Source: Planomicrobium okeanokoites (lineage in GTDB: Bacteria > Bacillota > Bacilli > Bacillales_A > Planococcaceae). From it: DNA of 64,000 nucleotides. A program made the position numbers and the translations under genes. The stretch lies in assembly GCF_003428875.1 (NCBI RefSeq), contig NZ_QQRS01000005.1, forward strand, positions 62,001-126,000, in the 5' to 3' direction. Of this stretch, positions 10,950 to 47,320 are shown piece by piece. Position 1 is the stretch's first letter, and every line of letters starts with the position of its first letter. A model generated the notes under the pieces. That model saw nothing but the letters and a program-made list of their open reading frames with translations. It was not told where the DNA came from and did not search any database.

Positions 10950-11075
10950 TTTATCCGCGGCTGGAGGCTGTTTATCCGCGGCTAGAATGGTTTTATCCGC
11001 GGCAAATGACATTTTATCCGCGCCTAGACGGGATTTATCCGCGCCTAGCTGGCTTTTATCCGCGGCAGCCTGAAA
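10950..11075. repeat. array A: six 21-bp units with core TTTATCCGCGSC
   Basis: Unit starts are 10950, 10971, 10992, 11013, 11034 and 11055, an exact 21-bp period. The first 12 bases are nearly invariant (TTTATCCGCG then GC or CC), and the last 9 vary. A degenerate TTGCCCGC follows. The array fills most of the gap between the speB terminator and the antiporter start. See the hunt section for the three sister arrays. Confidence 0.95.
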
Positions 11076-11082
11076 TTGCCCG

Positions 11083-11124
11083 CAAAAAAGCCGGTCCGGG
11101 AAAATTTCCCGGACCGACTTTTTA
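11083..11124 (-). terminator. intrinsic terminator after speB
   Basis: GGTCCGGGAAA pairs with TTTCCCGGACC, flanked by A- and T-runs on both sides, so it can work in both directions. Its main client is the speE-speB operon. Confidence 0.9.
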
Positions 11125-11139
11125 TAGTTTCGCTTTTCT

Positions 11140-12012
11140 TTATTTCACCCAACCCAAAATCATTTCACGAATAAGCTTGCTCGCTGTGTTCGCTGTCTGG
11201 TCGGAATGGTCGTAGACGGGTGCCAGCTCGACCAGGTCGAAGCCGACAACATTGACGCCGGATGCAGCGATTGCGTGGATGGATGCCAACAACTCGCGCG
11301 ATGTGATGCCGCCAGCGTCTACAGTTCCTGTGCCTGGCGCGTGCGCCGGATCCAATACGTCCATATCGATCGTCACGTAGACATTGCGTCCTTCAAGCGT
11401 CGGCAATACTTCTTTCAACGGCTCGAGAACTTCGAATTTTGAAATGTGCATGCCCTGCTCTTTCGCCCATTCGAATTCTTCTTTCATACCGGAACGGATG
11501 CCGAATGAATAAACATTCGTCGGTCCGATATGGTCTGCGATTTTGCGGATCGGCGTCGAATGGGAATATTCTTCGCCTTCATAGTTTTCGCGAAGGTCCG
11601 TGTGCGCGTCGAAATGGATGATTGCCAGGTCGTCGTATTTGCTGGCGACAGCTTTCATCACCGGCAATGACACCAAGTGCTCGCCGCCCATGCCAACAGG
11701 AATTTTGTCATCGGCTAAAAGCGTGTGGACATACGTCTCGATTTCGAGCAATGATTTTTCAGGATTGCCGAACGGCAATGGAATATCGCCTGCATCGAAG
11801 AACTTCACTTCGTGCAGTTCGCGGTCAAGATACGGGCTGTATTCTTCCAGACCGATCGACACTTCACGGATTTTATTTGGGCCGAAACGGGATCCCGGAC
11901 GGTAGCTGACGGTCCAGTCCATCGGCATGCCGTACAGCACCGCTTTCGACTCGTCGTAATTCGGATGGCTGCCAATAAATACTTTGCCTGAATAAGTTTC
12001 GTCGAATCTCAT
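11140..12012 (-). CDS. speB: agmatinase (ureohydrolase)
   Basis: The 290-residue enzyme hydrolyses agmatine to putrescine and urea. The Mn2+-binding motifs of the arginase/agmatinase family are present: GMGGEHLVSLP, IHFDAHTDLR, and TIDMDVLDPAHAPGTGT. It lies 3 bp downstream of speE, so one transcript supplies putrescine and spermidine synthesis together. The pairing speE-speB is the same as in B. subtilis. Confidence 0.96.
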   Translation of the reverse strand: MRFDETYSGKVFIGSHPNYDESKAVLYGMPMDWTVSYRPGSRFGPNKIREVSIGLEEYSPYLDRELHEVKFFDAGDIPLPFGNPEKSLLEIETYVHTLLADDKIPVGMGGEHLVSLPVMKAVASKYDDLAIIHFDAHTDLRENYEGEEYSHSTPIRKIADHIGPTNVYSFGIRSGMKEEFEWAKEQGMHISKFEVLEPLKEVLPTLEGRNVYVTIDMDVLDPAHAPGTGTVDAGGITSRELLASIHAIAASGVNVVGFDLVELAPVYDHSDQTANTASKLIREMILGWVK

Positions 12013-12015
12013 ATT

Positions 12016-12849
12016 TTATTCGCCTGCCAAATCTTTCACGAATTTAGGGAGCGCAAATGCTGCGTTGTGCAGCTCTTTCGTGTAGTATTTTGTATCGATT
12101 TCATGGAAACGCTCAGCCGGAACAGCAAGCGGGTCGTATTTTTTCGAACCGATCGTAAATGCCCACAGGCCGCTTGGGTAAGTTGGAATGTTTGCCAAAT
12201 ACAATTTCGTAATCGGGAAAATTTCCCGAACGTCGTTTTGCACCTGCTGGATCAAATCACCTTTGAACCAAGGGTTGTCCGATTGAGCGACAAAAATGCC
12301 GTCTTCTTTCAACGCTTTGGAAATGCCGGCATAAAAGCCTTTGGAGAATAAATTCACCGCTGGTCCGACCGGTTCAGTCGAATCGACCATGATCACGTCG
12401 TATTCGTTTTCCGATTCCGCGATGTGCATAAAGCCGTCTCCGACAATCACTTCTACGCGCGCATCTTCAAGGCCTGACGCAATCGATGGCAGGAATTTCT
12501 TCGAGTACTCGATCACTTTGCCGTCGATATCGACCAGCGTCGCTTTCTTAACAGAAGGGTGCTTCAGGATTTCACGGATGACACCGCCGTCACCGCCGCC
12601 GACAACCAGTACGTTTTCCGGGTTCGGGTGCGTGAACAATGGCACGTGCGCCACCATTTCATGGTAAACGAATTCGTCTTTCTCAGAAGTCATGACCATG
12701 CCGTCAAGGAACAGCATATTGCCCCATTCCTCGGTTTCAGCCATCTCCAAATATTGAAAATCCGTCTGCTCCGTGTGAAGCGTTTTGTTGATCTTCATTG
12801 TAATACCGAAATTCTCAGTCTGCTTTTCTGTATACCAGAATCCTGCCAT
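12016..12849 (-). CDS. speE: spermidine synthase
   Basis: The 277-residue aminopropyltransferase moves the aminopropyl group of decarboxylated SAM to putrescine. The N-terminal [16 protein letters not shown] is typical of Bacillus Spe[19 protein letters not shown] is the nucleotide-binding loop, and [14 protein letters not shown] holds the catalytic Asp region. The ATG at 12849 follows AAAGGAG. It is the first gene of the speE-speB pair, with a promoter at 12893-12920 and a putative small RNA further upstream. Confidence 0.96.
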
Positions 12850-12892
12850 CTATAATCAAACTCCTTTATCTTATATAGTAATCACTTAAAAA

Positions 12893-12920
12893 AGTATAAG
12901 TGTTTTGGTCAAAAGTGCAA
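12893..12920 (-). promoter_or_regulatory. candidate sigma-A promoter of speE-speB
   Basis: On the minus strand TTGCAC and TATACT are separated by 16 bp and lie about 45 bp before the speE start. It sits downstream of the ncRNA terminator, so speE need not depend on read-through. Confidence 0.6.
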
Positions 12921-12970
12921 TACAATTTTTCACACAGTCTCCTTTACCCGACTGTCACAATATTATTCAG

Positions 12971-13134
12971 GAAATTAAAAAGGCTTTCTGCACAGAGAAT
13001 TTTTCCCTGCACAGAAAACCTTTTTAATCCTGATTGGCGAAGAAAGTGACATGAGGCATTGGGCTTGGGTTTGATCCAATCGCTCACGCCACTTGCTTGC
13101 CGACAGGTGTCCTAGCTTTCTATTCAAAAGCTGT
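12971..13134 (-). ncRNA. putative structured small RNA or leader upstream of speE
   Basis: No convincing ORF is present, but the minus strand carries a rod-like fold. The 13083-13094 arm AAGTGGCGTGAG pairs with CTCATGTCACTT at 13044-13055 (12 bp, two G-U pairs). An inner ATTGG/CCAAT stem and outer GGCAAG/CTTcGCC and CCTG/CAGG stems extend it. The 3' end is a strong hairpin at 12977-13025 whose 14-bp outer stem ends in CCTTTTT. A promoter-like TTGAAG-17-TACACT lies just upstream. Expected size is about 165 nt. No match to a known RNA family is recognised. It could also be a transcription-attenuating leader for speE. Confidence 0.6.
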
Positions 13135-13140
13135 ATTCCT

Positions 13141-13169
13141 AGTGTACTTCCTTTTTCCCGCAACTTCAA
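13141..13169 (-). promoter_or_regulatory. candidate sigma-A promoter of the putative small RNA
   Basis: On the minus strand TTGAAG and TACACT are separated by 17 bp. The predicted start is near 13134, immediately before the structured segment. The stretch 13170-13350 beyond it shows no gene. Confidence 0.55.
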
Positions 13170-13350
13170 CTGCCTGTTATACCCATTTTGAAAAGTCATA
13201 TTTTGTTCAAAAATAATAAAAAAATACGGTCGACAGCAGATAAATGACTTTTCATTTCAGTGAATCTGTGACTTGGATAAGTGACAGGATATTATATCAG
13301 TCAAATGATATGTTGCATTTGTCCATGCGGATTCTTTAAAGAGCTTTATG

Positions 13351-13388
13351 AAAAAAGAGCTTCAGCCCGAAACGGCCAAAGCTCTTTC
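13351..13388 (-). terminator. intrinsic terminator after ywhD
   Basis: On the minus strand AAAGAGCTT...GGCC pairs with GGGCTGAAGCTCTTT, followed by a short T-run. Confidence 0.75.
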
Positions 13389-13397
13389 CCACTCTAT

Positions 13398-13913
13398 TTA
13401 TACATCCAGCTCGGTGTGCAGCTGTTCAGAACTCCGCTGCCACATTTCAGCGTTGTGGCTGCGCAAGTATTCCGCAAGCACGCGTTTAGACGGTGCATCC
13501 ATGTTATCGACTAAAATTCTGCGTTTCATCGATTTGTCCATGCGGTTGACATGGTCGGCCAGGATTTTATAGCCGCGGCGTTTTTCCCGGTTCACTACCA
13601 TTTCACAAGCAGTGACACCTGCATAATAAGGGCCTTCCGGATTGAAATCGATGGTGATCCAGATCAGCCAGTAATCCTTGCCGCCTGCTGAATCTTCACG
13701 GTTAGTGGTGAATTTTATCCCGCGTTCCACTTCACTGCGCGCATGCATCGCACCGATATCGATGAACGCTTCCTGCTCGGCAACATCGATAAACAGCGGC
13801 GAGACGTTTTCCAGCGACAGTGATCCGATACCGTAGCCTTTATGGCCGTCGGTTGGATCATCTTTTATAATGGTGAATCCGACTTTTTGTTTTGGTTTTT
13901 CATTGTTCGACAT
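13398..13913 (-). CDS. ywhD: YwhD family protein
   Basis: The 171-residue soluble protein corresponds to B. subtilis YwhD in length and sequence pattern, including KVGFTIIKDDPTDGHKGYG and the WLIWITIDFNPEGPYYAG block. No enzyme motif is visible and its function is unknown. GGAGGG precedes the ATG by 9 nt. It is divergent from the tautomerase gene and close to speE-speB, as in the Bacillus ywh cluster. Confidence 0.9.
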   Translation of the reverse strand: MSNNEKPKQKVGFTIIKDDPTDGHKGYGIGSLSLENVSPLFIDVAEQEAFIDIGAMHARSEVERGIKFTTNREDSAGGKDYWLIWITIDFNPEGPYYAGVTACEMVVNREKRRGYKILADHVNRMDKSMKRRILVDNMDAPSKRVLAEYLRSHNAEMWQRSSEQLHTELDV

Positions 13914-13975
13914 GTGTACATTCCCTCCATTCTGCTATGATAAGGCTAACCCAAAGAAAAGGAGCTGTGTCCATT

Positions 13976-14161
13976 ATGCCATACGTAACTGTTAAAATGC
14001 TCGAAGGAAGAACGGAAGACCAGAAACGCGCGCTTGTCGAGAAAGTCACGGAAGCTGTTTCCGAAACAACCGGTGCACCAGTCGAGAACGTTGTCGTTTT
14101 CATCGAAGACATGAAGAAAACCGACTACGGCACAAAAGGCAAACTTTTTTCAGATCAATAA
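13976..14161 (+). CDS. 4-oxalocrotonate tautomerase family enzyme
   Basis: The 61-residue small protein resembles B. subtilis YwhB. After removal of Met the N-terminal proline (MPYVTVKMLEG) is the catalytic base of this family, which tautomerises 2-hydroxymuconate-like substrates as a hexamer. Arg residues near 11 and 39 are expected in the site; here only a general fit can be claimed. AAAGGAG lies upstream of the ATG. The physiological substrate is unknown. Confidence 0.9.
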   Translation: MPYVTVKMLEGRTEDQKRALVEKVTEAVSETTGAPVENVVVFIEDMKKTDYGTKGKLFSDQ

Positions 14162-14204
14162 ACGAAAAGCGGAAACGGCCGCTACGAAAAGCGATTGCAC
14201 TCCC

Positions 14205-14229
14205 AGCTTCCTTCAAGGAAGCTTTTTTA
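14205..14229 (+). terminator. intrinsic terminator after the tautomerase gene
   Basis: AGCTTCCTTCAAGGAAGCT forms an 8-bp stem followed by TTTTTTA. Confidence 0.85.
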
Positions 14230-14239
14230 TTGTCTGGAA

Positions 14240-14734
14240 TTAATTCTTCAATTCTTCTATAAAAGCAAAGGCTTCCGTAATCTCTTCCGCTGTAAAATTG
14301 AGCTTGCCTTTGACGCTGTGGAGTTTGGCAATCTGCTCATCCCGCCCCAAATCATCGAAAAACAGCAATGTCGCCGTCAATTCCAGGAATCTGGCACTTT
14401 TCCCGTTCAGCTGGATAGCGTGTTCACTGTTCTCAAGCACCGGCTTGCCGAGGGCATTGCGGAATTCAAGCCCTTCCGCCGTTACTTCGTAGCGATATTG
14501 GACATATGAACTTTTATCTTCTTTTTGTTCGAGAATAAAACCCATATCACACAATTCTTCGATGCGCGCAGTCAATTCCTCTGAATACGGTCCATAGATA
14601 TGGAATTCGTATTTTTCCTGAAACGGCACGCCAATTTTCTTCAATATGTATATCATCTTCTGCAATTTCTTGCGTCCGGTTACACCTTCCGCCGTGGAGA
14701 TGAAATCCACTATTTTTGCGTGTTCCTGGAGCAA
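14240..14734 (-). CDS. ywgA: YwgA family protein
   Basis: The 164-residue protein matches B. subtilis YwgA (GRKKLQKMIYILKKIGVPF and YEFHIYGPYSEEL). These blocks also occur in the antitoxin/phage-associated Panacea-type fold, but no partner toxin is seen, so the function stays unknown. The start is TTG at 14734 with GGAGG 7 nt upstream, directly abutting the stop of the HD-domain gene. The two genes are probably cotranscribed and coupled. Confidence 0.85.
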   Translation of the reverse strand: MLQEHAKIVDFISTAEGVTGRKKLQKMIYILKKIGVPFQEKYEFHIYGPYSEELTARIEELCDMGFILEQKEDKSSYVQYRYEVTAEGLEFRNALGKPVLENSEHAIQLNGKSARFLELTATLLFFDDLGRDEQIAKLHSVKGKLNFTAEEITEAFAFIEELKN

Positions 14735-16039
14735 TCAAACCCCTCCTTCTCTTAATAACTCAAGTATTTGCTGTTTTATTTCCTTCTTCTTGCCATCAAT
14801 CAATAATTCCGCTGGGAAATATAATTTATAGTCTGTGCGGCGTTTGCCTGAAATGCCGTCAACGATTTGGGACAACCGCGACAATTCCTTGATGTCGCCA
14901 TTCGGCATCAAAAGATGGATCGGCAAGCGCTCCTCTTCCTCGCCCGGCCGGTAGAAATCATAGGGCAGATCCGATGTCGAATCATCTATTAAATAGTATT
15001 CCGGATCGATGCCGGCTTTTTGGAACAATTGCGCCAGTTCGCCCAGTTTCTTATAATCCTTGCCAGGATCAAAATCGACGTATTGGAACAGACGGCGGTT
15101 GACGAAGCGGTCGCAAAGATCTGAAAGAATCGGGTCGCGTTCTGTAATCCACAGCTGGAAATACGTCATCAGCACACCTTCATCAAGTGCCAGATAATCT
15201 TTCAACGTGAAAGATCTATCGAAAAATGCGAGAAAATGCGTCGGCGGCTGCTCGAATTTATAGCCATGGCCGCTCAGATACTTGGCTCGCTGCAGGATTT
15301 TCCGAAGAATCACTTCGGCACTGCGCGCGACCGGATGGAAATAAACCTGCCAGTACATCTGGTAGCGGCTCATGATGTAATCTTCAACCGCATGCATGCC
15401 GCTCGATTTGATGACGACCTGATCTTCGAACGGGCGCATGACGCGGAGAATCCGTTCCATATCAAAATGGCCGTAAGAAACCCCGGTGTAATAGGCGTCG
15501 CGCTGCAAATAATCCATCCGGTCTGCATCGATCTGGCTGGATATCAGGGAAACCACTTGTTTATTGGCATAAGTTTTGCCGATTACTTCCGCCACTTTCT
15601 TCGGAAAGTCCGGTGCGACTTTTTTCAGGATGCTGTTGACTTCCGTATCGCCCTGCAGGATTTCACGGGTGAAGTCCTCATGGTCGACATTGAATACTTT
15701 CTCGAATGAATGCGAAAACGGGCCGTGGCCCAGGTCGTGCAATAAAGCGGCACAAAGGACGACGAGCCGTTCACTTTCATCCCATTCCGGACGGCCGTGG
15801 AAAATGTCGTCGAGGATCCGGCGCACAATTTCATAGACGCCGAGCGAATGGCTGAAACGGCTGTGCTCCGCCCCGTGAAATACGAGGTAGGATGTGCCAA
15901 GCTGTTTGATGCGGCGCATACGCTGGAATTCGCGTGCATTGATCAAATCCCAGATGACTTGGTCGCGTACGTGGATATACCGGTGAACCGGATCTTTAAA
16001 CACTTTCTCTTCCGCTAATTTCTGATTTGCATAATCCAC
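14735..16039 (-). CDS. ywfO: HD domain phosphohydrolase (YwfO-like)
   Basis: The 434-residue protein has an N-terminal HD domain, with GAEHSRFSHSLGVYEI and LLHDLGHGPFSHSFE giving the metal-binding His and HD residues. The family includes dGTPase-like dNTP triphosphohydrolases, and YwfO-type members hydrolyse dNTPs. The internal SSQIDADRMDYLQRDAYYTG block is characteristic. The C-terminal half is less conserved. It is followed without a gap by ywgA. Confidence 0.9.
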   Translation of the reverse strand: MDYANQKLAEEKVFKDPVHRYIHVRDQVIWDLINAREFQRMRRIKQLGTSYLVFHGAEHSRFSHSLGVYEIVRRILDDIFHGRPEWDESERLVVLCAALLHDLGHGPFSHSFEKVFNVDHEDFTREILQGDTEVNSILKKVAPDFPKKVAEVIGKTYANKQVVSLISSQIDADRMDYLQRDAYYTGVSYGHFDMERILRVMRPFEDQVVIKSSGMHAVEDYIMSRYQMYWQVYFHPVARSAEVILRKILQRAKYLSGHGYKFEQPPTHFLAFFDRSFTLKDYLALDEGVLMTYFQLWITERDPILSDLCDRFVNRRLFQYVDFDPGKDYKKLGELAQLFQKAGIDPEYYLIDDSTSDLPYDFYRPGEEEERLPIHLLMPNGDIKELSRLSQIVDGISGKRRTDYKLYFPAELLIDGKKKEIKQQILELLREGGV

Positions 16040-16087
16040 ACACGCACCTCCAGATTTTTCTGTTTAAAATTGTTTATATATAGTAGC

Positions 16088-16332
16088 CGATATTCCGCAA
16101 AACAGCTTCGCTTTCGGGCCCACAGGATGTGGGTCATGCAGTCAGCGCGACAGGAAGTCGCGGTGCCGACTGCCGGGGCATTGAAACCCGTGCTCCTGCA
16201 TCGCTACGCTGCTTCGTCGCAAAGAGTTGACCTCGCAGGCTTCGTTCAACTCTTCGCCGCTTTGCTCCATATCTTCAGTGTCTTCTCTCAGCGCTGACGC
16301 GTCCTAAAACTAAGAGAAGCATTAAGACGAGT
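16088..16332 (+). repeat. dispersed intergenic repeat family 1, copy 1, with a folded insertion
   Basis: This stretch from GATATTCCGCAAAACA to AAGACGAGTG is similar over most of its length to the inverse of 54971-55150. Shared blocks include GCTCCTGCATCGCT, GCTTCGTCGCAAAGAGTTG, TCAACTCTTCGC and TTTGCTCCATATCT. The AAGAGTTGA/TCAACTCTT arms form an internal hairpin. Copy 1 has about 75 extra bases (near 16108-16186) containing nested pairs GCAGTC/GACTGC, GCGAC/GTCGC and CCCAC/GTGGG. It fills the 396-bp gap between ywfO and lipL; no gene is seen there. Confidence 0.85.
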
Positions 16333-16435
16333 GTCATTCTAAGTTTATGGGAGGAACGTTGTCCAAAGCGGCCGAAGCGGCATGCAAAGGCAGCTTCTTT
16401 ATTAAAATCAGTTTACATCAGTCTGCTTCAACCAT

Positions 16436-17251
16436 TCAACTCGTGCTCAGCATTTTCGCATTGCGCTCAACTACACGCTCAAGGTAATAACCGTAGCGCT
16501 CGGTTTCTTCCGGCTGGAGCGGTTTCATCTCCGGTTTTTCTAGCAGGTTATACAGATCGACTACCACTTCTGCTACGGTGATATTGCGGCCGAGCAGCTC
16601 ACTGAGTGAAGCCATGGTTTCAGGCTGGATGGAAGGATAAGCGAATTTCGTTTCTTCTCCTTTTAATCCCTTTTCATAAAAATCACGGATCAGTTCCGCA
16701 CGTTCAGAACCGCTGCCTTCGACACAAAGATAGACTTGAACGGCGATGCCTTTGCGGATGCGGCGCTGGGAGATTCCTGCAAATTTCCGGCCGCCGATGC
16801 TGAGGTCATATGAGCCCGGGCAATAGGAGCCCACGATTTCATAAGCATCGATTTCCGCTTCCGGGAACAGCAGCCGGACAAGATCGAGCATCATTTCATA
16901 GCCTTCCGGAATGTCGATGGCGCTTTCCTTTTCAGACAACACGACAGAAATATTCAATACACCTTCGTCGAGAACCACCGCGAGTCCGCCTGAATTCCGG
17001 ACAATCGGGTTGTAGCCCCGCTCTTTCAGCAATTCGATTCCTTCATTGATATGCGGCAGCCGGTGGTCCTGGATACCGAGTACGACGGTATTGTCATGGA
17101 CCCATGTACGGATCGCCGGGACGCTTGCACCGGAGCCGACCAATTCACATAATAAATCGTCCGCCGCAAATGATTCGAGCGCGGATCTGTTTTTTGCGCT
17201 CAGGGACTGGTCCCAGAAACGCCATTCTTTTTGATCTGTAAATGACGGCAT
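16436..17251 (-). CDS. lipL: octanoyl-[GcvH]:protein N-octanoyltransferase (lipoate relay)
   Basis: The 271-residue protein of the lipoate-protein ligase A/B fold corresponds to B. subtilis LipL (YwfL). It moves octanoyl from GcvH to E2 subunits. RNSGGLAVVLDEGVLNIS is the lipoyl-binding glycine-rich block. The Cys at about residue 144 in GSYCPGSYDLS fits the catalytic cysteine, and GRKFAGISQRR holds the conserved lysine. The start at 17251 has GAGGAG 7 nt upstream. It is transcribed alone. Confidence 0.88.
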   Translation of the reverse strand: MPSFTDQKEWRFWDQSLSAKNRSALESFAADDLLCELVGSGASVPAIRTWVHDNTVVLGIQDHRLPHINEGIELLKERGYNPIVRNSGGLAVVLDEGVLNISVVLSEKESAIDIPEGYEMMLDLVRLLFPEAEIDAYEIVGSYCPGSYDLSIGGRKFAGISQRRIRKGIAVQVYLCVEGSGSERAELIRDFYEKGLKGEETKFAYPSIQPETMASLSELLGRNITVAEVVVDLYNLLEKPEMKPLQPEETERYGYYLERVVERNAKMLSTS

Positions 17252-17354
17252 GATTTTTCTCCTCTTCAAAGCTGTTGCTTGGTTTCATTTTACATTACAG
17301 CCTGTCCTGTGAAAAGGAACGATGGTCATGTCAAATTGGTGACAGCCATTTCTT

Positions 17355-17382
17355 TTGAAGGAACTTGCAGGATGGGTATGAT
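17355..17382 (+). promoter_or_regulatory. candidate sigma-A promoter of hemQ
   Basis: TTGAAG and TATGAT are separated by 16 bp, about 45 bp upstream of the hemQ start, with AGAAGGAG before the ATG. Confidence 0.5.
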
Positions 17383-17425
17383 AAACTGGTTTTGAGAGAT
17401 TTTAGATTAGAAGGAGTGTTTACAG

Positions 17426-18175
17426 ATGAATGAAGCAGCAATCACTTTAGACGGCTGGTACGTCCTCCACGATTTCCGTTCGATGGATTGGGTATCATGG
17501 AAAATGCTTGAGGAAGACGAACGCCAATTCGCGATCGACGAATACCAGGCATTCATGGACAAGGTAAACCAGGCCGATGAAAATAAAACCGGCGCACACG
17601 CATTGTATTCAATTGTTGGCCAAAAAGCTGACTTGATGCTGATGCTTCTGCGCGAAACGATGGACGAATTGCGTGAGCTTGAAACGGAATACAACAAGCT
17701 GACATTGGTAGCTTACACGGTCCCGACATACTCTTACGTATCTGTTGTGGAACTTTCGAATTACCTTGCAGGTAAATCAGATGAAGATCCATACCAGAAC
17801 CCGCATGTCCGTGCGCGTTTGTATCCGGAGCTTCAGCGTTCGCAGTACATCTGCTTCTACCCGATGGACAAGCGCCGCGACGGCGATGACAACTGGTACA
17901 TGCTGCCGATGGACGAGCGCAAAGATTTGATGCTGTCACACGGCAAAATCGGCCGCAGCTACGCAGGCAAAGTAAAACAGATCATCTCCGGCTCTGTCGG
18001 CTTTGACGATTACGAATGGGGCGTAACTCTGTTCGCAGATGACGTTCTTCAATTCAAGAAACTGATCTACGAAATGCGCTTTGACGAAGTCAGCGCACGT
18101 TACGCTGAATTCGGTTCGTTCTACGTCGGCACGCGCCTTGATAAAGAAAGAATCGTTAAGTTTTTGGAAGTTTAA
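17426..18175 (+). CDS. hemQ: coproheme decarboxylase (HemQ, chlorite-dismutase fold)
   Basis: The 249-residue protein catalyses the last step of Gram-positive haem synthesis, the oxidative decarboxylation of coproheme to haem b. The family pattern is clear: [13 protein letters not shown] at the start, [32 protein letters not shown] with the active-site loop, and [15 protein letters not shown]. No chlorite-dismutase distal Arg assignment is attempted. Length is normal for Bacillales HemQ. A terminator follows 15 bp after the stop. Confidence 0.96.
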
Positions 18176-18190
18176 ATTGTTCGATGAAGC

Positions 18191-18280: not shown

Positions 18281-18388
18281 TGACCGCACCTCATAATGAG
18301 ATTTCCGCACCTTCTAGCCGATTTTCCGCACCTCAAATGTCTTTTTCCGCACCTCAGAAGCAAATTTCCGCACCTCAATTTGTGCGGC
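18281..18388. repeat. array B: five 21-bp units with core TTTCCGCACCTC, closed by an inverted half-copy
   Basis: CCGCACC cores lie at 18284, 18305, 18326, 18347 and 18368, an exact 21-bp period. The first copy has diverged to CTGACCGCACCTC. The last core pairs with GTGCGG at 18383-18388, giving a CCGCAC/GTGCGG hairpin at the array end. It occupies the gap between hemQ and the next gene. Confidence 0.93.
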
Positions 18389-18497
18389 TAAAAATTATGG
18401 ATTTTATTGGTTAAATTAGCGCTTGAATCTCGGACTTTTCAAGACTGTTTCCACTCAAACACCAAATTTCGCTCTCTCTATTTCCATTTTTCTGGAT

Positions 18498-18575
18498 ACA
18501 CTGTCCGGAAACGACCATATACTGTCCGGAACCATTAATATACTGTCCGCAAATTAAAAATACTGTCCGCAGCGA
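18498..18575. repeat. array C: four 20-21-bp units with core ATACTGTCCGSA
   Basis: ACTGTCCG cores start at 18500, 18521, 18542 and 18562 (steps 21, 21, 20). The first two read TCCGGAA, the last two TCCGCA. The core is the reverse complement of the unit in array D at 47225-47320. The rest of the 563-bp gap from 18176 to 18738 shows no gene. Confidence 0.92.
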
Positions 18576-18738
18576 TTCCAATCCAATCCAAACCCCTGAT
18601 TACCTACAGTTTGCCCCGGCAAACTGCTTAGGTCCGTGAGCGCTGCGCCGCTCACTGCCAACTGTCATTTTTCTGCCATATTCAATTCGTTATTTTCTGA
18701 CATCTTTCGGTATACTAAAAGAAAAACGGGGTGTTTGT

Positions 18739-19770
18739 ATGTTCGTGATGCGTCAGACAAACTATGCAAAATGGGCTCTCTTTTTCCTTGTACTCGTGTT
18801 GGCCAGCAACTTCATCCTTTACCGATCTCCTCTGTCTTCAATGATCATTCCGGAGGAAGCATCTTTGCTGGTCCTTGGCTCACTGCTCGACTTCGCGGTG
18901 GTGGCGCCTTTGCTGCTGCTTGCCACATTCCGCCTGACCGCCAAACAGTTTATCGGCTTCGTCGCCGGCGGTTTCATCCTCGCGCGCCTGCTTGTGCCGT
19001 CACTCTATTTTGAGCCGTTCGCTGTTTTTTTCTATGTCGGCATTGGTTTGGAGGCACTGGTTTTATTCGCGGAAATTGCACTCCTTGGGCTATTGATCAT
19101 ACATATTCCGAAAATACACCGCTCGATGAAGAACCAGACGGGCAGCCCGCTCTTCACCTTATTCCCGGCAGTTTTCGAAAAAATAAAGCCGAATCCGCTC
19201 ATCGCCATCATCCTGTCAGAAGCCCTGGCATTCTATTATGCGCTGTTCAGCTGGAAAAAGAAGGCGCCTGAAGGGCCGGCGACGGTGTCGCTCCATAAAG
19301 ACAGCAGCGTCATCGCGATGAACATCATGCTGATCCATGCAGTGGTGATCGAAACCATCGGCCTCCACTGGTGGTTCCATGAAGAATCCCCGCAGCTGTC
19401 GTTGATTCTTTTGATACTTAACATTTATACCGTGGTTTATTTCCTCGGTGAAATCCAGGCAATCCGCTTGAATCCACTGACAATAAAAGACGGCAACCTG
19501 AACGTTTCGATCGGACTGAGCAAAAGAATCAGCGTGCCGCTGGAAGCTATCGAATCTGTCCGCTGGGGAGGTAAAGTGGATAATGAGGTTCTCGCGTTCA
19601 TGGCGAAGGATTTTGAAGAGCCTGTGCCGCAAGTTATCATTGATTTTAAAGCGCCGCAGCAAGCAACACTTTTCTATGGACGAACCAAATCGATTTCGCA
19701 AATCGCTTTGAAAGTGGATGATCCGGACAAATTAAGAGCATTATTGGAATCGAACATCGAGCAGACTTGA
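18739..19770 (+). CDS. polytopic membrane protein of unknown function with C-terminal soluble (possibly PH-like) domain
   Basis: I do not recognise this 343-residue protein. Residues about 10-130 and 150-240 contain seven or eight hydrophobic helices. From about residue 250 a soluble segment begins (NPLTIKDGNLNVSIGLSKRISVPLEAIESVRWGG) whose pattern of a bend followed by 'I...V' strands resembles bacterial PH domains. It starts at ATG 18739 behind GGGGTG; an in-frame ATG at 18748 is also possible. It is alone between arrays B/C and a terminator. Confidence 0.75.
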   Translation: MFVMRQTNYAKWALFFLVLVLASNFILYRSPLSSMIIPEEASLLVLGSLLDFAVVAPLLLLATFRLTAKQFIGFVAGGFILARLLVPSLYFEPFAVFFYVGIGLEALVLFAEIALLGLLIIHIPKIHRSMKNQTGSPLFTLFPAVFEKIKPNPLIAIILSEALAFYYALFSWKKKAPEGPATVSLHKDSSVIAMNIMLIHAVVIETIGLHWWFHEESPQLSLILLILNIYTVVYFLGEIQAIRLNPLTIKDGNLNVSIGLSKRISVPLEAIESVRWGGKVDNEVLAFMAKDFEEPVPQVIIDFKAPQQATLFYGRTKSISQIALKVDDPDKLRALLESNIEQT

Positions 19771-39372: not shown

Positions 39373-39386
39373 TTCATTTAATGATT

Positions 39387-40520: not shown

Positions 40521-41452
40521 CAATTTTCCTCCTCGAAGGTTCTGTTATAAACATCCTGGCTCATATAACGTTCGCTGGAATCAGCGAACACCGTAACAAT
40601 ATGGCTTCCGGGTTCAGCGGTTTCGGCCTCTTTTAGTGCTGCAACAAATGCGGCGCCAGAAGAACCCGCCACCAATAAGCCTTCCCGTTTTGCCAATTCC
40701 TTGAAAGCGGCAAAAGCTTCACGGTCTGTGATCGTATGGATGGCGTCAAAATAGGAGGCATCCATATAATCCGGCAAAAACTCCATGCCGATGCCTTCTG
40801 TCAAATGCGGACCTGATTCACCGCCGTTCAAAATGGAGCCTTCCGGTTCCACGATTACCGTTTTAATAACAGCGTTTTGCGATTTCAAATAGCGGGATGT
40901 CCCCATAAACGTGCCGCCGGAACCTGCTCCTGCGACAAAGATATCGATCTTGCCATCGAGCGCTTCCCATAATTCCGGGCCGAGCGTCCGGACATAAGTT
41001 TCCGGATTGGCCGGATTCGAAAATTGTGACGGTGAAAAAGCCTGCTCGTCTTTTGCAAGCTGCTGCGCTTTTTCAATGGCGCCTTTCATCCCTTTTTCAG
41101 TCGGTGTGTTGATGACTTCCGCGCCAAGTGCGCGCATCAGCCCCTGTTTTTCCTGGCTGAACTTCTCAGGAACGACAAACTTCACTTTATAGCCTTTGCC
41201 GATAGCGGCAATAGCTAAGCCGATGCCAGTGTTTCCGGCAGTCGGCTCGATCATGGTGCCGCCGGGCTTCAATACGCCGCGGCGCTCGGCATCTTCTATT
41301 AATGAAACACCCAGGCGGTCTTTAACGCTTCCGCCCGGATTCAAATATTCAAGTTTTGCGAAAATCCTGCAATTGTTCGGAATGTCCATATTCGTCAATT
41401 CCAACAGAGGCGTATTGCCGATCAATTGCTGGATGCCGGTAGCATACTTCAT
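40520..41452 (-). CDS. mccA: cystathionine beta-synthase / cysteine synthase (reverse transsulfuration)
   Basis: The 310-residue fold-type II PLP enzyme carries the PLP lysine motif NPGGSVKDRLG near residue 45 and the glycine loop AGSGGTFMG. Within this operon it most likely combines O-acetylserine or serine with homocysteine to give cystathionine, as B. subtilis MccA does. The ATG at 41452 has GGGG 7 nt upstream; one at 41458 is also in frame. Coupled to mccB. Confidence 0.92.
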   Translation of the reverse strand: MKYATGIQQLIGNTPLLELTNMDIPNNCRIFAKLEYLNPGGSVKDRLGVSLIEDAERRGVLKPGGTMIEPTAGNTGIGLAIAAIGKGYKVKFVVPEKFSQEKQGLMRALGAEVINTPTEKGMKGAIEKAQQLAKDEQAFSPSQFSNPANPETYVRTLGPELWEALDGKIDIFVAGAGSGGTFMGTSRYLKSQNAVIKTVIVEPEGSILNGGESGPHLTEGIGMEFLPDYMDASYFDAIHTITDREAFAAFKELAKREGLLVAGSSGAAFVAALKEAETAEPGSHIVTVFADSSERYMSQDVYNRTFEEEN

Positions 41453-41463
41453 GTCCATTCCCC

Positions 41464-41937
41464 TTAGACCGTTTCTTCAGCGAACACCTGGTGCCACTCA
41501 TCTTTTTTAGCCAGCATTTCACGCGCCAATTCTTTTGCGCCTTCTAAGCTGTGGCTAGCTGCCCAGCCGCACTGTACTTCATTGCAGGCCGGAACTTCGT
41601 CTGCTTCAATTACATCTTTCAACGTATTTTCGATGATGTTCAATACATCTTCGTAATCGTCATGGTTGATCAACGACAGGTAATAGCCAGTCTGGCAGCC
41701 CATCGGCCCGATGTCGATGATCTGGTCGGAATGGTTGCGGCTGTGTTCCGCCATCATGTGTTCAAGTGAATGAAGGCCGGGCATTTCCATGTGTTCTTTG
41801 TTCGGCTGTTTGAAACGGATATCGTATTTGCGGATCGTGTCCCCGTTCGCCCCTGTTTTTTCTCCTGCAAGACGCACGTAAGGTGCAGCAACTTTTGTAT
41901 GGTCGAGGTTAAAGCTTTCAACGTTCATTTTTTTCAA
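41464..41937 (-). CDS. luxS: S-ribosylhomocysteine lyase (AI-2 synthase)
   Basis: The 157-residue metalloenzyme splits S-ribosylhomocysteine to homocysteine and DPD, the AI-2 precursor. The Fe/Zn site is visible: [14 protein letters not shown] and the Cys of [33 protein letters not shown] holds the catalytic Cys. A TTG start at 41937 gives [16 protein letters not shown], matching the family N-terminus, with GGAG 9 nt upstream. It lies between yrrT and mccA. Confidence 0.95.
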
Positions 41938-41962
41938 TGGAATCGTCTCCTTCTGCTTATAC

Positions 41963-42598
41963 TTATTTTTTAATCGCGTCAATCAGCCAGACATAATTGT
42001 TCAGCTGGGTGAACTCTACTGTGAATCCTGCCTGTTCAATCAGCTCTTTCATCACAGGCAAAGTCGTGTAATATTCACGGTTTAAATCTTCTACAAGGTT
42101 ATCATGACCGCGGGACTTTTCAAAGTCAATCACTTCCTGCTGCGATTCTTTCGACTGGAATAACGTATCAGCGAATACTACACGGCCGCCTGTCGGAAGC
42201 AGTTCGGCATACTTTCTAAACGCCTCGGCTTTTTCAGCATCCGTCAAATGGTGGAACGCATATGAACTAACTAAAGACTTTGGCTGGACCGGCAGATCAA
42301 ATTCCAAAAAGTCTCCATCTATGATGGTTGCATCCGTCAATTTCTCTTTTGTCACGTCGCGCATTGCCGCATTCGGCTCGATGCCGGCAACTTCAAATCC
42401 TTTGGCAAGCAATTTTTCAGTCAGGTTGCCTGTTCCTACACCAAATTCAATTACAGGACTAATTGCCGCGTCGGCAACTGCCTGCAGTATATCTTCATAT
42501 TTAAAGAACACATCTCTGTATTCCGCATCTTTACCACTAACTGATTCATCATAGGTGTGAACCCATTCATCAAATATCGCTACGAACTCGCGTCCCAT
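41963..42598 (-). CDS. yrrT: class I SAM-dependent methyltransferase (YrrT-like)
   Basis: The 211-residue protein has the SAM-binding loop [19 protein letters not shown], the [10 protein letters not shown] acidic loop and [20 protein letters not shown]. It heads the operon yrrT-luxS-mccA-mccB, where S. subtilis-type operons also begin with yrrT. The methyl acceptor is unknown. The start at 42598 follows AAAGGAG. Confidence 0.85.
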
Positions 42599-42680
42599 GT
42601 TTTTGCTCCTTTTCGGTTTCATTGTACATAAAACCAATAGTTTTACTCGGCTTTATTTATAACATAAAGAAGCGCCGGTT

Positions 42681-43319
42681 TCAAACTTTCAAAACCGGCG
42701 GCAGCTCGTCTTTCTTTTCAATGATCCTTTTCAATAAAGCTTCGGCCTGCGGCAAGGTGAATTGAACGATTCTGCCGGTTATAAGAGCGACCGCTATCGT
42801 ACCGATTCCGACCGGCCCGCCAAGTGCCCAGCCGATCAGCGCAGCGGTGATTTCGATTCCGGCACGCACAACAGTGACACTTAGCCCGGTTTTCTGCATC
42901 AGCACGAGCATAAGGCTGTCTCTCGGTCCCGCTCCGATTTTCGGCGCTACGTAGATACCGACACCGAAGCCCGAAACGATGATTCCGCCAATCAGGATCA
43001 TCACTTGACCTGTAATGGATGGGATATCCGGGATCAGGAAATAATAGATGTCGATGAACACACCGATCAAAATCATATTCAGGAATGTTCCGATTTGCGG
43101 AATCCTCCGCTGCGAAACAGTGGAAATGACGATCAATATGAATGAAACGATAATCGACCATGTCCCGATTGTCAGTCCAAAATTCATGAACAATCCGACA
43201 TGCAGCACGTCCCAAGGACCGATGCCCAGCTTATTGGCCTTGATGATCATCGTGAACCCGAGTGCCAATATGATTAATCCGCTGAGAAAAAACAGCCAGC
43301 GGTAAAACAGCGTTCTCAT
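42681..43319 (-). CDS. YczE/YyaS/YitT-type membrane protein
   Basis: The 212-residue protein has five hydrophobic helices. It carries LGIGPWDVLHVGLFMNFGLT and VAPKIGAGPRDSLMLVLMQ, which mark the YczE family. Function is unknown. The start at 43319 (adjacent ATG at 43322) follows GAAGGGG; the longer frame to 43382 would lie inside the ybaK terminator. Confidence 0.85.
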   Translation of the reverse strand: MRTLFYRWLFFLSGLIILALGFTMIIKANKLGIGPWDVLHVGLFMNFGLTIGTWSIIVSFILIVISTVSQRRIPQIGTFLNMILIGVFIDIYYFLIPDIPSITGQVMILIGGIIVSGFGVGIYVAPKIGAGPRDSLMLVLMQKTGLSVTVVRAGIEITAALIGWALGGPVGIGTIAVALITGRIVQFTLPQAEALLKRIIEKKDELPPVLKV

Positions 43320-43366
43320 CATTAAGCCCCTTCTTTCACTGAGTGTTCGTCTCTTTTTTAAGCTTA

Positions 43367-43402
43367 AGAAAAATCCACCCATTTAGCAAAATGGGTGGAA
43401 AA
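43367..43402 (-). terminator. intrinsic terminator after ybaK
   Basis: On the minus strand TTCCACCCATTT pairs with AAATGGGTGGA, followed by TTTTTC. Confidence 0.9.
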
Positions 43403-43407
43403 CCGGA

Positions 43408-43899
43408 TTAATCGTCTTTCACTGTCAGGTTGGCATATTGGCCATCAGTGACTTTCAGCAAATTGACGGGATCCAATTTAATCTGCATGCCGATTTTCCC
43501 CGCGGATACGATGATTTCTTCCTGCATTTCCGCGTGCCTGTCAATAAACGTCGGGAACGGCTTTTTCATGCCGACCGGCGAACAGCCGCCTTTGACATAG
43601 CCGGTAAGAGTCAGGATTTCTTTGACCGGGGCCATCTCGACTTTCTTTTCACCAGCGGCTTTTGCAGCTGCCTTTAAATTCAATTCTTCAGCAACCGGAA
43701 TCACAAACACATAATGCTGTTTGGATGCCCCTGCAGCTACAAGCGTCTTGTAGACCACTTTTTCCGGATGGCCGATTTTGGCAGCGACAGATACTCCATC
43801 TACCAGACCGTCTTCAATGTCATAATGAATGATGTCGTAGGGAACATTTTCTTTATCCAGGATTCTTGCAGCATTGGTTTTTGCAATCTTTTTTCCCAT
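43408..43899 (-). CDS. ybaK: Cys-tRNA(Pro)/Cys-tRNA(Cys) deacylase, YbaK/EbsC family
   Basis: The 163-residue editing enzyme removes cysteine from mischarged tRNA. The conserved KTLVAAG, ELNLKAAAKAAGEKKVEMA, and GGCSPVGMKKPFPTFID block are typical of YbaK. The ATG is at 43899. It is alone between topB and its terminator. Confidence 0.94.
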   Translation of the reverse strand: MGKKIAKTNAARILDKENVPYDIIHYDIEDGLVDGVSVAAKIGHPEKVVYKTLVAAGASKQHYVFVIPVAEELNLKAAAKAAGEKKVEMAPVKEILTLTGYVKGGCSPVGMKKPFPTFIDRHAEMQEEIIVSAGKIGMQIKLDPVNLLKVTDGQYANLTVKDD

Positions 43900-43963
43900 G
43901 GCGGCGCTCCTTATCTGATAACTGTAATCATAAAATCAGCTTACCACCATTTTCAAAATATTT

Positions 43964-46123
43964 CTAATCGTTCTGGTTCATCAATTTTTTCAGCGCTTCG
44001 GCCATTGCCGTGTTTTGCGGCGGCTCGTCCTGCTGTTTCAGGTATTTGTTGACGTCTTTTTTGGTCGCTTTCGACTGGCCGGATTTTTTGCGTTTTTCAA
44101 ATGCCGACAGTTTTTCACGGTGCCCGCATTTGCAGACGAAAATCTTGCCGTCGCCTTCACCCTGCATCTCCAGTTTCTTATGGCAATTCGGGCAGCGCGC
44201 ATTCGTCAGCATCGCCACTTGTTTCTTGTAGCCGCATTCGCGGTCCTGGCAGACGTTCATCTTACCGCGCTTGCCGTTGACTTCAAGAAGCGGCTTTCCG
44301 CAATCCGGGCACATTTTACCCGTGACGTTGTCATGCTTGAATTTCTTGTCGCTTTTTTTAATATCGGAAACCGATTTTTCCGCGAATAAAACCATTTCTT
44401 TCATGAAAGTTTCTTTCTTCATCTGGCCTTTGGCGATTTTCGTCAGCTGCTGTTCCCAGTCAGCTGTCAGTTTCGGTGACTTTAAATCTTCGGGAACGAG
44501 CTCAAGGAGCTGGCGGCCTTTGGACGTGATTGTCAGGTCCTTGCCTTTTTTCTCGATCAGGAAGGTATTGAATAATTTATCGATGACATCTGCGCGGGTC
44601 GCTACTGTACCGAGTCCGCCTGTTTCGCCGAGTGTCCGGATGGCTTCCTTCGATTCACCCGCCATGAACTGCGCCGGATTTTCCATCGCGCCGAGCAGCG
44701 TCCCTTCATTGAAGAAAGCAGGCGGCTTGGTTTTGCCTTCTGTCAGGGAGATGCCTTTGATTTTTAGCGTCTGCCCTTTTTCGAAAGGCGGCAAAGTCGT
44801 GTCCTTGTCTTCATCGTCCTCCAGATAGATGCGTTTCCATCCTTCATTGCGTACCGTATTGCCCTTGGCCTGGAATGTTTCACCGCCGGCAGTCAGTTTG
44901 ACCGTCGTCTGGTCATACTCATATTGCGGATAGAATACCGCCAGGAAACGCTTGACGATCATGTCGTATAATTTATGCTCGTTCGCCGACAATTCGTGCA
45001 GCGGCGGATTTTCTTCTGTCGGGATGATGGCATGGTGGTCGGACACTTTGGCATCATCGATGACACCTTTCTGCGCCGACACCGGTGATTTCAGGATTGT
45101 CGCTGCCAGCGGGCGGTAAGGACCCGTCTGTACGGCTTTGATGCGGTCTTTCAGCGTCTCTTTCATATCGGACGTCAGATGTTTCGAATCCGTCCGCGGG
45201 TACGTCACGATTTTATAGCGCTCATACAGGTTCTGCAGCGTATTCAGCGTCTCTTTCGCCGACCAGCCGTAGCGTTTATAAGCCTCTTTCTGCAGTTCGG
45301 TCAAGTCGAATAAAGGCGGTGCCGGCTGTCGCTTCGGCGTGATTTTGATATCTGTCACGGTGCCTTCGTGTGTGTTGTCGAGCTTCGCGAATAAACGATC
45401 GACTTTCTCCTTATCGAACGACTGCGTTGAATTGCCGTCCGTCCACGTGAATGCAGCTGCGTCCGTTATGGCTTGCATGCCGTAATACGGCTTCGGCTGG
45501 AAGTTGCGGATCTGCTGCTCGCGCTCCGCGATCATCGCAAGCGTCGGCGTCTGCACGCGGCCCGTTGATAATTGCGCGTTGTATTTTACTGTCAACGCAC
45601 GCGTCGCGTTGATGCCGACGACCCAGTCTGCTTCGGCGCGCGCCACTGCCGCCTGGTAAAGGTGTTCGTAGGCTTTGCCGTCTTTAAGGTTATTGAAGCC
45701 GTCTTTGATGGCTTTGTCTGTGACCGACGAAATCCACAGGCGTTTAACCGGCTTTTTGGTGTTTGTCTTTTCCAAAATCCAGCGCGCTACAAGTTCCCCT
45801 TCGCGCCCGGCATCCGTCGCGATGATGACGTCTTTGACGTCGCCGCGGTTTAGCTGCGATTTAACTGCGTTATATTGTTTCATTGATTGTTTGATTGGCA
45901 CGAGCTTGAACGGTTTCGGAATGATCGGCAGATTCTCCATCTTCCATTCCTTGAAGTCGTTGTCATACTGCTCCGGCTGCGCATGCGTCACCAAATGGCC
46001 CAGCGCCCAAGTCACAATATACTGTTTGCCTTCCAGATATCCGTTGCCTTTCTGATTGCATCCCAGCACTCGCGCAATGTCGCGTGCCACCGATGGCTTT
46101 TCCGCTATTACGATTGATTTCAT
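43964..46123 (-). CDS. topB: DNA topoisomerase III
   Basis: The 719-residue type IA topoisomerase relaxes and decatenates DNA. The N-terminal Toprim motif includes IVIAEKPSVARDIARVLG and IIATDAGREGELVARWI. The catalytic tyrosine lies in VTYPRTDSKHL. Cys4 zinc ribbons near the C-terminus (MCPDCGKPLLEV and ARCPNCHKKLEM) are seen, with a basic tail. The start at 46123 follows GAGGATG. Transcribed alone. Confidence 0.96.
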   Translation of the reverse strand: MKSIVIAEKPSVARDIARVLGCNQKGNGYLEGKQYIVTWALGHLVTHAQPEQYDNDFKEWKMENLPIIPKPFKLVPIKQSMKQYNAVKSQLNRGDVKDVIIATDAGREGELVARWILEKTNTKKPVKRLWISSVTDKAIKDGFNNLKDGKAYEHLYQAAVARAEADWVVGINATRALTVKYNAQLSTGRVQTPTLAMIAEREQQIRNFQPKPYYGMQAITDAAAFTWTDGNSTQSFDKEKVDRLFAKLDNTHEGTVTDIKITPKRQPAPPLFDLTELQKEAYKRYGWSAKETLNTLQNLYERYKIVTYPRTDSKHLTSDMKETLKDRIKAVQTGPYRPLAATILKSPVSAQKGVIDDAKVSDHHAIIPTEENPPLHELSANEHKLYDMIVKRFLAVFYPQYEYDQTTVKLTAGGETFQAKGNTVRNEGWKRIYLEDDEDKDTTLPPFEKGQTLKIKGISLTEGKTKPPAFFNEGTLLGAMENPAQFMAGESKEAIRTLGETGGLGTVATRADVIDKLFNTFLIEKKGKDLTITSKGRQLLELVPEDLKSPKLTADWEQQLTKIAKGQMKKETFMKEMVLFAEKSVSDIKKSDKKFKHDNVTGKMCPDCGKPLLEVNGKRGKMNVCQDRECGYKKQVAMLTNARCPNCHKKLEMQGEGDGKIFVCKCGHREKLSAFEKRKKSGQSKATKKDVNKYLKQQDEPPQNTAMAEALKKLMNQND

Positions 46124-46275
46124 ATTATTCATCCTCATTTCTCATTTGGCTATTATAACATTTTCTGTTTTGCGGGTGGTGTGGAGTGATTGATTCACAT
46201 AGTTTTCGAGTAGTCGGAATTTTCTTGCCCCTTCAATTTATATAAGCTATATTTAAATGAAGGAGATGATAATTA

Positions 46276-47241
46276 TTGATACTTAAAGAGCGTCACCAAC
46301 CGCCCGAAATTTTGCAGCTCGAAAGTCTGCTGCAACGTGTACCCATCGTCCATCCCCGATTTCCCCACTGGACGGAACAGCTTCGCCGAATGTCTGCCGG
46401 CTTCCACGGCGAACAGCGCGTCGACTCCCTCTTCTATGAAATTCCCATTGACAGTCCTCATTACTTTATACAAGATCTTTTCATTCAAAAGCCCAAGTCC
46501 TCCCACCAGATTGATAGCGTGCTCATCACCAGCCGCTTCGTGCTGCTGCTTGAAATCAAATCCATTTCAGGCGAGCTGAATTTCGATCCGCAGCTGCGCC
46601 AATTCTCCCGTACCAATAAAGACGGCAGCGTCGACGGTATGACCAATCCCGACGACCAGATCCGCCGCCATGAAAAATGGATGCAGCAATTTTTGGCATC
46701 GCAAAAAATATCGCTGCCTGTCATTGGCGTGATTGTATTCACATATCCGTCCTCTATTGTAAACAGCCGCCCGAAAAACCGCATCATCATCCAGTCGTCT
46801 GGCCTGCCATTTTTAATGGACCAGCTGTTGTTGAAATATCCTGACGAGTTGCTGAATACGCGGAAAACTCGGCAACTTGCTGATCGGCTGCTCAAGTTGC
46901 ACAGCCTCCGGCAATTGCGGCAGATAGAGGTTCCGGCGGGATTGAGGAGGGGTGTGCTTTGCCCGAAATGCCCTGACTCTAAACTGACATATCGCTACAA
47001 AAAATGGACATGCCAAAAATGTTCTTTGATTGATCCACACGCTCACCTGCGAACACTCCAAGAATATCGGGTGCTAATCAATCCGCTCATAAGCAACCGG
47101 GAATTCAGAGACTTCACTGGCATTGAATCGGTTTCTATAGCTTCCAAACTTCTAACAGATTCAAAAATGACTTTCCAGGGTAGTTTCAAGGACCGAGTTT
47201 ATATGATTCCGGAGTCATTTGATGCTCCGGACAGTATTTGA
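46276..47241 (+). CDS. NERD domain protein with zinc-ribbon
   Basis: The 321-residue protein has an N-terminal nuclease-related NERD domain at about residues 40-150 (GEQRVDSLFYE, HQIDSVLITSRFVLLLEIKS with the E-x-K pair). A Cys4 zinc ribbon follows at about 235-262 (LCPKCPDSK, TCQKCSLI). It may act on DNA or RNA; no partner is visible. The start is TTG at 46276 behind GGAG. Its last codons (DAPDSI) are written by the first unit of array D. Confidence 0.85.
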   Translation: MILKERHQPPEILQLESLLQRVPIVHPRFPHWTEQLRRMSAGFHGEQRVDSLFYEIPIDSPHYFIQDLFIQKPKSSHQIDSVLITSRFVLLLEIKSISGELNFDPQLRQFSRTNKDGSVDGMTNPDDQIRRHEKWMQQFLASQKISLPVIGVIVFTYPSSIVNSRPKNRIIIQSSGLPFLMDQLLLKYPDELLNTRKTRQLADRLLKLHSLRQLRQIEVPAGLRRGVLCPKCPDSKLTYRYKKWTCQKCSLIDPHAHLRTLQEYRVLINPLISNREFRDFTGIESVSIASKLLTDSKMTFQGSFKDRVYMIPESFDAPDSI

Positions 47242-47320
47242 TCTGCTCCGGACAGTATTTTTAATCTCCGGACAGTATTTGGTCTGCTCCGGACAGTATT
47301 TTTAATCTCCGGACAGTAAG
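47225..47320. repeat. array D: five 20-21-bp units with core CTCCGGACAGTA
   Basis: Units start at 47225, 47246, 47266, 47287 and 47307 (steps 21, 20, 21, 20). The spacing alternates because tails alternate (TTTGATCTG and TTTTTAAT), a 41-bp higher-order duplication. The first unit overlaps the NERD gene stop. The core is the exact reverse complement of array C, at the other end of the window. Confidence 0.94.

Follow-up and report, generated by a model that had tools for sequence, protein, structure and literature searches.

Four phased arrays in a 64-kb window

The stretch of DNA analyzed here (hereafter the window) comprises 64,000 nucleotides from Planomicrobium okeanokoites, a bacterium counted with Planococcus in our comparisons and whose genome is termed G000. 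It carries four arrays in which a short word is repeated every 20–21 bp, equivalent to two turns of the DNA helix, and several unrelated words are used in this manner. The arrays were located by Tandem Repeats Finder and a direct-repeat search, and inspection of the sequence agreed. The original prediction described four arrays with three core families, and both counts hold: the arrays A1 to A4 have six, five, four, and five units, all spaced 20–21 bp, and the core of A3 recurs in A4 on the opposite strand. The arrays and the leaders of A3 and A4 are as follows.

10950..11066, + strand: array A1, six TTTATCCGCG[GC]C units plus variable spacer, spacings 21, 21, 21, 21, 21
18284..18377, + strand: array A2, five CCGCACCTCA units (CCGCACC) plus spacer, spacings 21, 21, 21, 21
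18481..18498, + strand: A3 leader, TTTCCATTTTTCTGGATA, with its TCC 21 bp ahead of the TCC of unit 1
18499..18571, + strand: array A3, four ACTGTCCG units (ACTGTCC), spacings 21, 21, 20
47225..47318, − strand: array A4, five ACTGTCCGGAG units, spacings 21, 20, 21, 20
47319..47336, − strand: A4 leader, ATTTCCATTAAAAGAGCT on the minus strand

Array A1 is flanked by an arginase-family gene (11140-12012, − strand), whose 3′ end faces it, and by a Na+/H+ exchanger gene (9603-~10847, − strand), which starts on its other side. A2 lies downstream of a hemQ-like gene of the chlorite-dismutase family (17426-18175, + strand), and A3 occupies the same gap. Beside both is a 343-amino acid open reading frame (ORF; 18739-19770, + strand) that has no Pfam match. 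When this gap is aligned with related genomes, the downstream alignment persists in G145 and G005 and stops short in G064 and G007. A4 is located between a NERD-domain ORF (46276-47241, + strand), whose final 17 bases it overlaps, and an FMN-reductase gene (47982-48569, − strand). As anticipated, all four arrays are intergenic or at a gene end, and the spacers between their units are divergent.

Leaders of the TTTCCA type, similar to that of A3, precede most other ACTGTCC arrays of G000 that were displayed. Likewise, the A4 leader is recognizable in all four other Planococcus genomes aligned, including one in which the cores are different. Folding also predicts two-hairpin elements of ~85–115 bp near A3 and A4 (18588-18672, 47545-47660, and 47780-47890). 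Relatives of the element at 18588-18672 are dispersed through several Planococcus genomes, and some of these relatives adjoin ACTGTCC arrays.

A genome-wide system with a common period

The chromosome of the source bacterium carries a genome-wide system of phased intergenic arrays that use many unrelated words and share one layout. This was revealed with a detector that is blind to core sequence, which reports a 7-mer when three or more identical copies share a single period, with periods of 8 to 80 allowed. When applied to the window, 20 stretches of G000, and 16 stretches of four relatives, the detector returned 52 arrays, 35 of which have a period of 20–21 bp. One set of locally shuffled sequences yielded none. 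Five of the 20 G000 stretches had been picked near known arrays, and the other 15 (300 kb) were evenly spaced on three contigs. These unselected stretches hold 10 arrays with a period of 19–22 and only 2 at all remaining periods, and the corresponding density of 3.3 arrays per 100 kb extrapolates to ~110 arrays over 3.3 Mb. In 316 kb from other Bacilli, a period of 21–22 was found for just 2 of 12 tandem arrays.

The window and the 20 G000 stretches together contain 26 arrays, whose seed spacings are 20 bp in 32 instances and 21 bp in 77. Lifting the spacing tolerance adds a single value of 42. Distances between copies of TACTGTCC run on near 41, 61, 82, and 101, which are values outside the selection criterion. 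The proposal that the period equals two helical turns is upheld by the spacings throughout and by their multiples.

Other aspects of the original prediction required adjustment. The suggested four to six units are found in 19 of these 26 arrays, but the overall range is 3 to 17, and core length is ~9–15 bp rather than 10–12 bp. We distinguish at least 10 core families in G000, including TTTATCGGCGATT and its variants, TTTATGCCCAACTT, TTTACTCCCAACTT, TTTAATCGCCCGCA, GCCGATCACAAA, AATACTTTCCAATT, and GTGATCATAGAATC. At least four families lack CCG, which had been put forward as the common core feature; what the families have in common is the period. The core-blind scan nevertheless bears out the broader idea of one design with several cores.

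Three additional sequence features were considered and rejected. Compensation by A-tracts, wherein runs of A would accompany 20-bp spacings, gave strong raw counts (in a test that used a table of twist values), but the values after clustering of related spacers are 0.29 versus 0.19 (P = 0.6). Because the signal is lost on clustering, it is taken to reflect shared descent. A left half, WWTA, shared by all cores was found in 4 of 19 grouped cores compared to 3.1 in shuffles (P = 0.36), and a stricter post hoc pattern of this type was found in 3 of 19 (P = 0.015). No claim is made for such a shared half, and the grouping mixed some cores. Finally, DnaA boxes have the sequence TTATCCACA, which TTATCCGCG alone resembles while the other cores are unlike it, and this candidate was dropped.

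Placement of arrays relative to genes

Genes were assigned by a simple codon-usage caller, which missed the NERD ORF beside A4. None of the 26 G000 arrays resides inside a called gene although just 16% of the sample is intergenic; in three cases the array runs into a gene end, by 1–17 bases. The gaps occupied by the 26 arrays are convergent in 6 cases, tandem in 17, and divergent in 3. A terminator-like hairpin is present no more than 80 bp away from 8 of the 26 arrays, compared to 58 of 495 background windows (P = 0.01).

A scan with the pattern TACTGTCCG provided a second sample of 53 Planococcus loci. These yielded 40 distinct ACTGTCC arrays that have a gene on either side, some of them orthologous to one another. 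All 40 are intergenic, and 18 occupy convergent gaps (P = 0.002 relative to the share of gaps longer than 150 bp). Those in tandem gaps are co-directed with the genes in 7 cases and opposed in 9, and no preference for start codons was seen. This combination of placement and random orientation is a pattern unlike that of promoter operators.

Conservation and turnover at orthologous sites

Orthologous loci were found via their flanks and then aligned, which yielded eight pairs (from four genomes for A4, three for A3, and one for A1). Sites that differ make up 15 of 329 core positions, 72 of 347 spacer positions, and 367 of 1757 flank positions, and the difference between core and spacer is pronounced (P = 1.5e-10). 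The flanks of G064 are high (67/200 and 104/232), partly from a nonhomologous right flank at A3. Without G064 and the A4 locus of G007, the values are 3/203 for cores, 25/210 for spacers, and 153/1111 for flanks, where core still differs from spacer (P = 1.6e-5) and spacer does not differ from flank (P = 0.5). Thus, cores in orthologous arrays change less than spacers, which drift like flanking DNA.

Some sites keep an array while its units or its core are replaced. At A4 in G007 (P. halotolerans), the site and the unit number are the same and the leader is recognizable, but all five cores differ, with four GGAAAGTA units and one GAAAAGTA unit in place of GGACAGTA, and 26 of 49 spacer sites differ as well. 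A3 shows whole-unit differences among G000, G145, and G005, and a single unit is left in G007. At the A2 site of G005 and G007, CCGCAACTAA and CCGCACCTCA units are present within one phased series.

Broader samples of two sites gave similar results, although each consists of best-scoring loci and near relatives are therefore over-represented. Of the best 30 Planococcus loci (from 45 matching genomes), 24 have an array in the gap downstream of the hemQ-like gene, as judged by a relaxed 6-mer detector without a shuffled control, and the words used are CCGCACC, CCGCAAC, ACTGTCC, ACTTTCC, and others. For the A1 site, arrays are present in 7 of 30 loci (the best 30 of 46 genomes, one locus being too short for testing), compared to 0 of 600 shuffles. 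Four cores are represented: TTTATCCGCG in three loci, TTTATCGTCGATT in two, TATGATCACTC in one, and TTACGAG in one, where the array stands ~400 bp from the A1 site.

Two further observations concern the units of individual arrays. Distant CCGCACC arrays of G000 (contig C12 at 554–564 kb and contig C21 at 315 kb) have near-identical spacers such as CCAAACGGTTCAAC, as if units had been copied between arrays. In addition, stretches L069 (12358-12714) and L070 (12696-12888) carry long 20-bp arrays of 17 and 10 copies that belong to one TGATCATAGAATC family on opposite strands, and two unit types alternate in the L069 array.

Distribution of arrays among genomes

Occurrences of three TCCG words at 20–21 bp were counted in 151 Planococcaceae genomes with a reversed control, a measure that is restricted to TCCG cores. 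Many genomes are well above the control (597 versus 0, 356 versus 10, and 311 versus 21), and others of the 151 are near zero. Such counts do not always coincide with detector arrays, since G084 has 216 TCCG triples yet just 2 arrays in 260 kb. Two Planococcus genomes, G009 and G011, yielded no arrays in 200 kb each, for which the density in G000 predicts 6.7. The original prediction's concern that period and core might both vary at random between genomes is answered in part: the core varies, whereas the period is constant. The relative with the top TCCG count, G170, has long CGACGGAWAG clusters at 21 bp (L128, L129, and L131).

Pairs of TACTGTCC are present in 6 of 8 Planococcus genomes compared to 1 of 291 genomes from the rest of the class, where the one instance is a single pair and the reversed control gives three single pairs. 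Among the matches listed, arrays with this core are also found in Bacillus sp. HF117_J1_D, Neobacillus, Metabacillus, Siminovitchia, and Oceanobacillus, and repeats of 20–21 bp in a few unrelated bacteria are possibly coding repeats. Separately, Bacillus sp. HF117_J1_D carries many ATACTGTCC and ATACTATCC arrays with a period of mostly 20 bp (L208, L210, L248, and L276).

Unrelated cores may also co-occur. CCGCACC pairs are found in 11 of 14 genomes with at least five ACTGTCC-array matches compared to 2 of 16 with none (P = 6e-4), a comparison that covers 16 of the 21 ACTGTCC-free genomes and leaves out 11 genomes with one to three matches. Three of the five omitted ACTGTCC-free genomes (G023, G187, and G012) match CCGCACC, which changes the second value to 5 of 21 (P = 0.002). 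On a tree of the arginase-family gene from 29 genomes, drawn without considering support values, array-rich genomes fall into at least two groups. However, the co-occurrence is suggestive at most, because the genomes are related. Moreover, ACTGTCC-free is not equivalent to array-free, because G010, G012, G187, and G190 have other hemQ-side arrays.

Comparison with known repeat systems

No account of phased multi-core arrays in Bacillales was found in the open-license literature, the largest result sets of which were covered partly, in keeping with the original remark of knowing no named family with this layout. Nonetheless, several known systems share individual features. Plasmid iterons are groups of several ~17–22 bp direct repeats that lie on one helix face, are bound by an initiator, and are located beside a rep gene at an origin. 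The arrays likewise consist of several direct repeats near two-turn spacing, but there is no Rep protein among those window array neighbors that have a Pfam match. REP/BIME, BOX, and STAR elements each form one family, and many are palindromic. The arrays are intergenic, dispersed, and often at gene 3′ ends, as these elements are, but differ in being direct repeats that use many cores at one constant period. The palindromic hairpin unit of the REP/RAYT system was also not observed in 22 of 24 folded arrays (z above −2.1; the other two have z below −4), and the transposase family PF01797 is absent from G000. Clustered regularly interspaced short palindromic repeats (CRISPR) have repeats of at least 23 bp, unlike the period of 20–21 bp and cores of 9–15 bp seen here. 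The arrays resemble phased protein-binding arrays, in that sites two turns apart lie on one face and the core is conserved above the spacer.

Two published cases merit closer comparison. PMC9426499 describes 20-bp direct repeats bound by ParR in pSK41, and C. perfringens parC families whose repeat words are unrelated and are recognized by a separate ParR in each family. The arrays resemble parC as described there in having a few direct repeats, the 20-bp repeat length of pSK41, and families with unrelated words, but parC is plasmid-borne and upstream of parM, whereas the present arrays are chromosomal and dispersed and have many cores (PMC9426499). The nearest published case found is that of the TAACTGA repeats of Beggiatoaceae, for which PMC4679880 reports many intergenic sets of 2–6 direct repeats, in the Guaymas genome mostly a short distance ahead of start codons, with the binding protein unknown there. 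Unlike this single heptamer, the present arrays use many words at a fixed two-turn period (PMC4679880).

Possible functions of the arrays

The combination of a kept core, two-turn phase, drifting spacers, turnover of units, and indifference to gene direction is explained most simply by cooperative binding of a sequence-specific protein on one face of the DNA. We place even weight for and against the specific reading that the arrays are clusters of mostly four to six phased putative binding sites for a sequence-specific DNA-binding protein or related proteins. If so, sites two turns apart would position bound protein copies on one DNA face where they are able to touch, and such contacts might produce an intergenic complex that is cooperative or filament-like. 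The core word and the phase would be preserved by selection while intervening bases drift, single units would be gained or lost as expected from recombination between repeats, and an array at one site might come to carry another core. This binding mode would perhaps be analogous to that of initiators on iterons, and would parallel that of ParR on parC as described in PMC9426499.

Indifference to gene direction together with the preference for convergent gaps makes a structural or boundary role likelier than service as an operator for one neighbor. From position alone, we infer that the protein-covered stretch could separate transcription units by acting as a road-block, a supercoil boundary, or a nucleoid anchor. 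A more ambitious proposal, which we advance tentatively as possible though not probable, is that one factor or a fast-evolving factor family reads helically phased arrays at gene boundaries genome-wide. Position and phase would be kept while the word drifts or is swapped between species, as a bacterial analog of centromere satellite turnover.

Several results weigh against protein binding. The substitution rates leave out A2, the comparison of A3 with G145 has the opposite trend (core 2/27, spacer 1/27), and a column test within arrays had a mixed outcome and is biased by the seed. The A4 array of G007 contributes 10 of the 15 core substitutions, and its wholly different cores imply that the exact word is dispensable at this site. 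Recent duplication is evident in A4, which has doublets, and in long arrays. The convergent excess in the G000 sample is moderate (6/26, P = 0.04; 7/26 when A4, beside the missed NERD ORF, is counted as convergent). Finally, the search for a gene that tracks the arrays, as originally suggested, yielded no such gene among three candidates. LytTR genes are present in 24 of 24 array-rich and array-poor genomes; the Y1-type transposase PF01797, which G000 lacks, is present in 9 of 14 Planococcus genomes that are array-rich and in 12 of 16 that are ACTGTCC-free; and Rho is present regardless of array status.

The strongest rival explanation, which we nevertheless judge unlikely, is that the arrays are minisatellites, selfish or neutral and without host function. 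Slippage would lengthen them, recombination from one array to another would spread or alter them, and their period would derive from the copying mechanism. Gain and loss of whole units at A3 down to the one unit of G007, the A4 doublets, homogeneous arrays of 10–17 copies, the changed cores and unrelated spacers at A4 of G007, and the large differences between genomes are all as expected from such a process. However, copying of units should affect core and spacer alike, yet the cores are retained and the spacers diverge as fast as the flanks. A copying mechanism also fits poorly with the same period being used for unrelated cores and with its rarity among tandem arrays of other Bacilli (2 of 12). 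Thus, minisatellites account for turnover and genome differences, but not for the contrast between core and spacer.

It is improbable that the arrays are operators for ordinary transcription factors, such as LytTR-type regulators. LytTR boxes are paired direct repeats ~21 bp apart that are located at promoters and contain ACAGT. The period and direct-repeat layout of the arrays fit this description, and ACAGT is present in the A4 core. However, arrays mostly have four to six units, show a 3′ and convergent bias, and follow no orientation rule, which is not promoter-like. Moreover, LytTR genes are found in rich and poor genomes alike, and G000 has 2, far fewer than its core families.

A role at the RNA level, as 3′ untranslated region structures or protein-binding RNA repeats, was among the original suggestions and is now highly doubtful. 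The frequent location near gene 3′ ends and the excess of nearby hairpins would be consistent with this role. When 24 arrays were folded on both strands with 60 shuffles each (two longer arrays being left out), 22 had z above −2.1 on both strands, and although two of the TTTATCGGCGATT type fold well (z = −5.3 and −4.7), there is no systematic signal. Orientation to genes is random, as in the tandem gaps noted above (9 versus 7), and Rfam gave no match at arrays. The sole Rfam match in the window is a cobalamin riboswitch (7141-7327, − strand, 126.5 bits).

That the arrays are decoys or relics of plasmid iterons or parC centromeres is scarcely credible, because despite a layout like that of iterons, and like the 20-bp repeats of pSK41-type parC described in PMC9426499, A1 and A4 have no match in 72,556 plasmid records (PLSDB), three core patterns match 1, 0, and 0 viral contigs, and Pfam revealed no Rep or parM/parR among 9 window array neighbors (1 of 9 unmatched) or the 10 genes of array-dense stretches L069 and L070 (4 of 10 unmatched). 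These ten genes correspond to MFS, dehydrogenase, TPR, M20 peptidase, acetyltransferase, and S51 peptidase families, plus the four without a Pfam match.

If the arrays are protein-bound, they would constitute an abundant layer of chromosome organization, with approximately one array per 30 kb in G000, in which a fixed geometry is combined with an evolving recognition word and for which we found no name. The presence of array-bearing and array-free genomes within one genus offers a natural contrast for finding the factor. Likewise, sites at which the array persists but its core is replaced would make the coevolution of protein and DNA directly testable.

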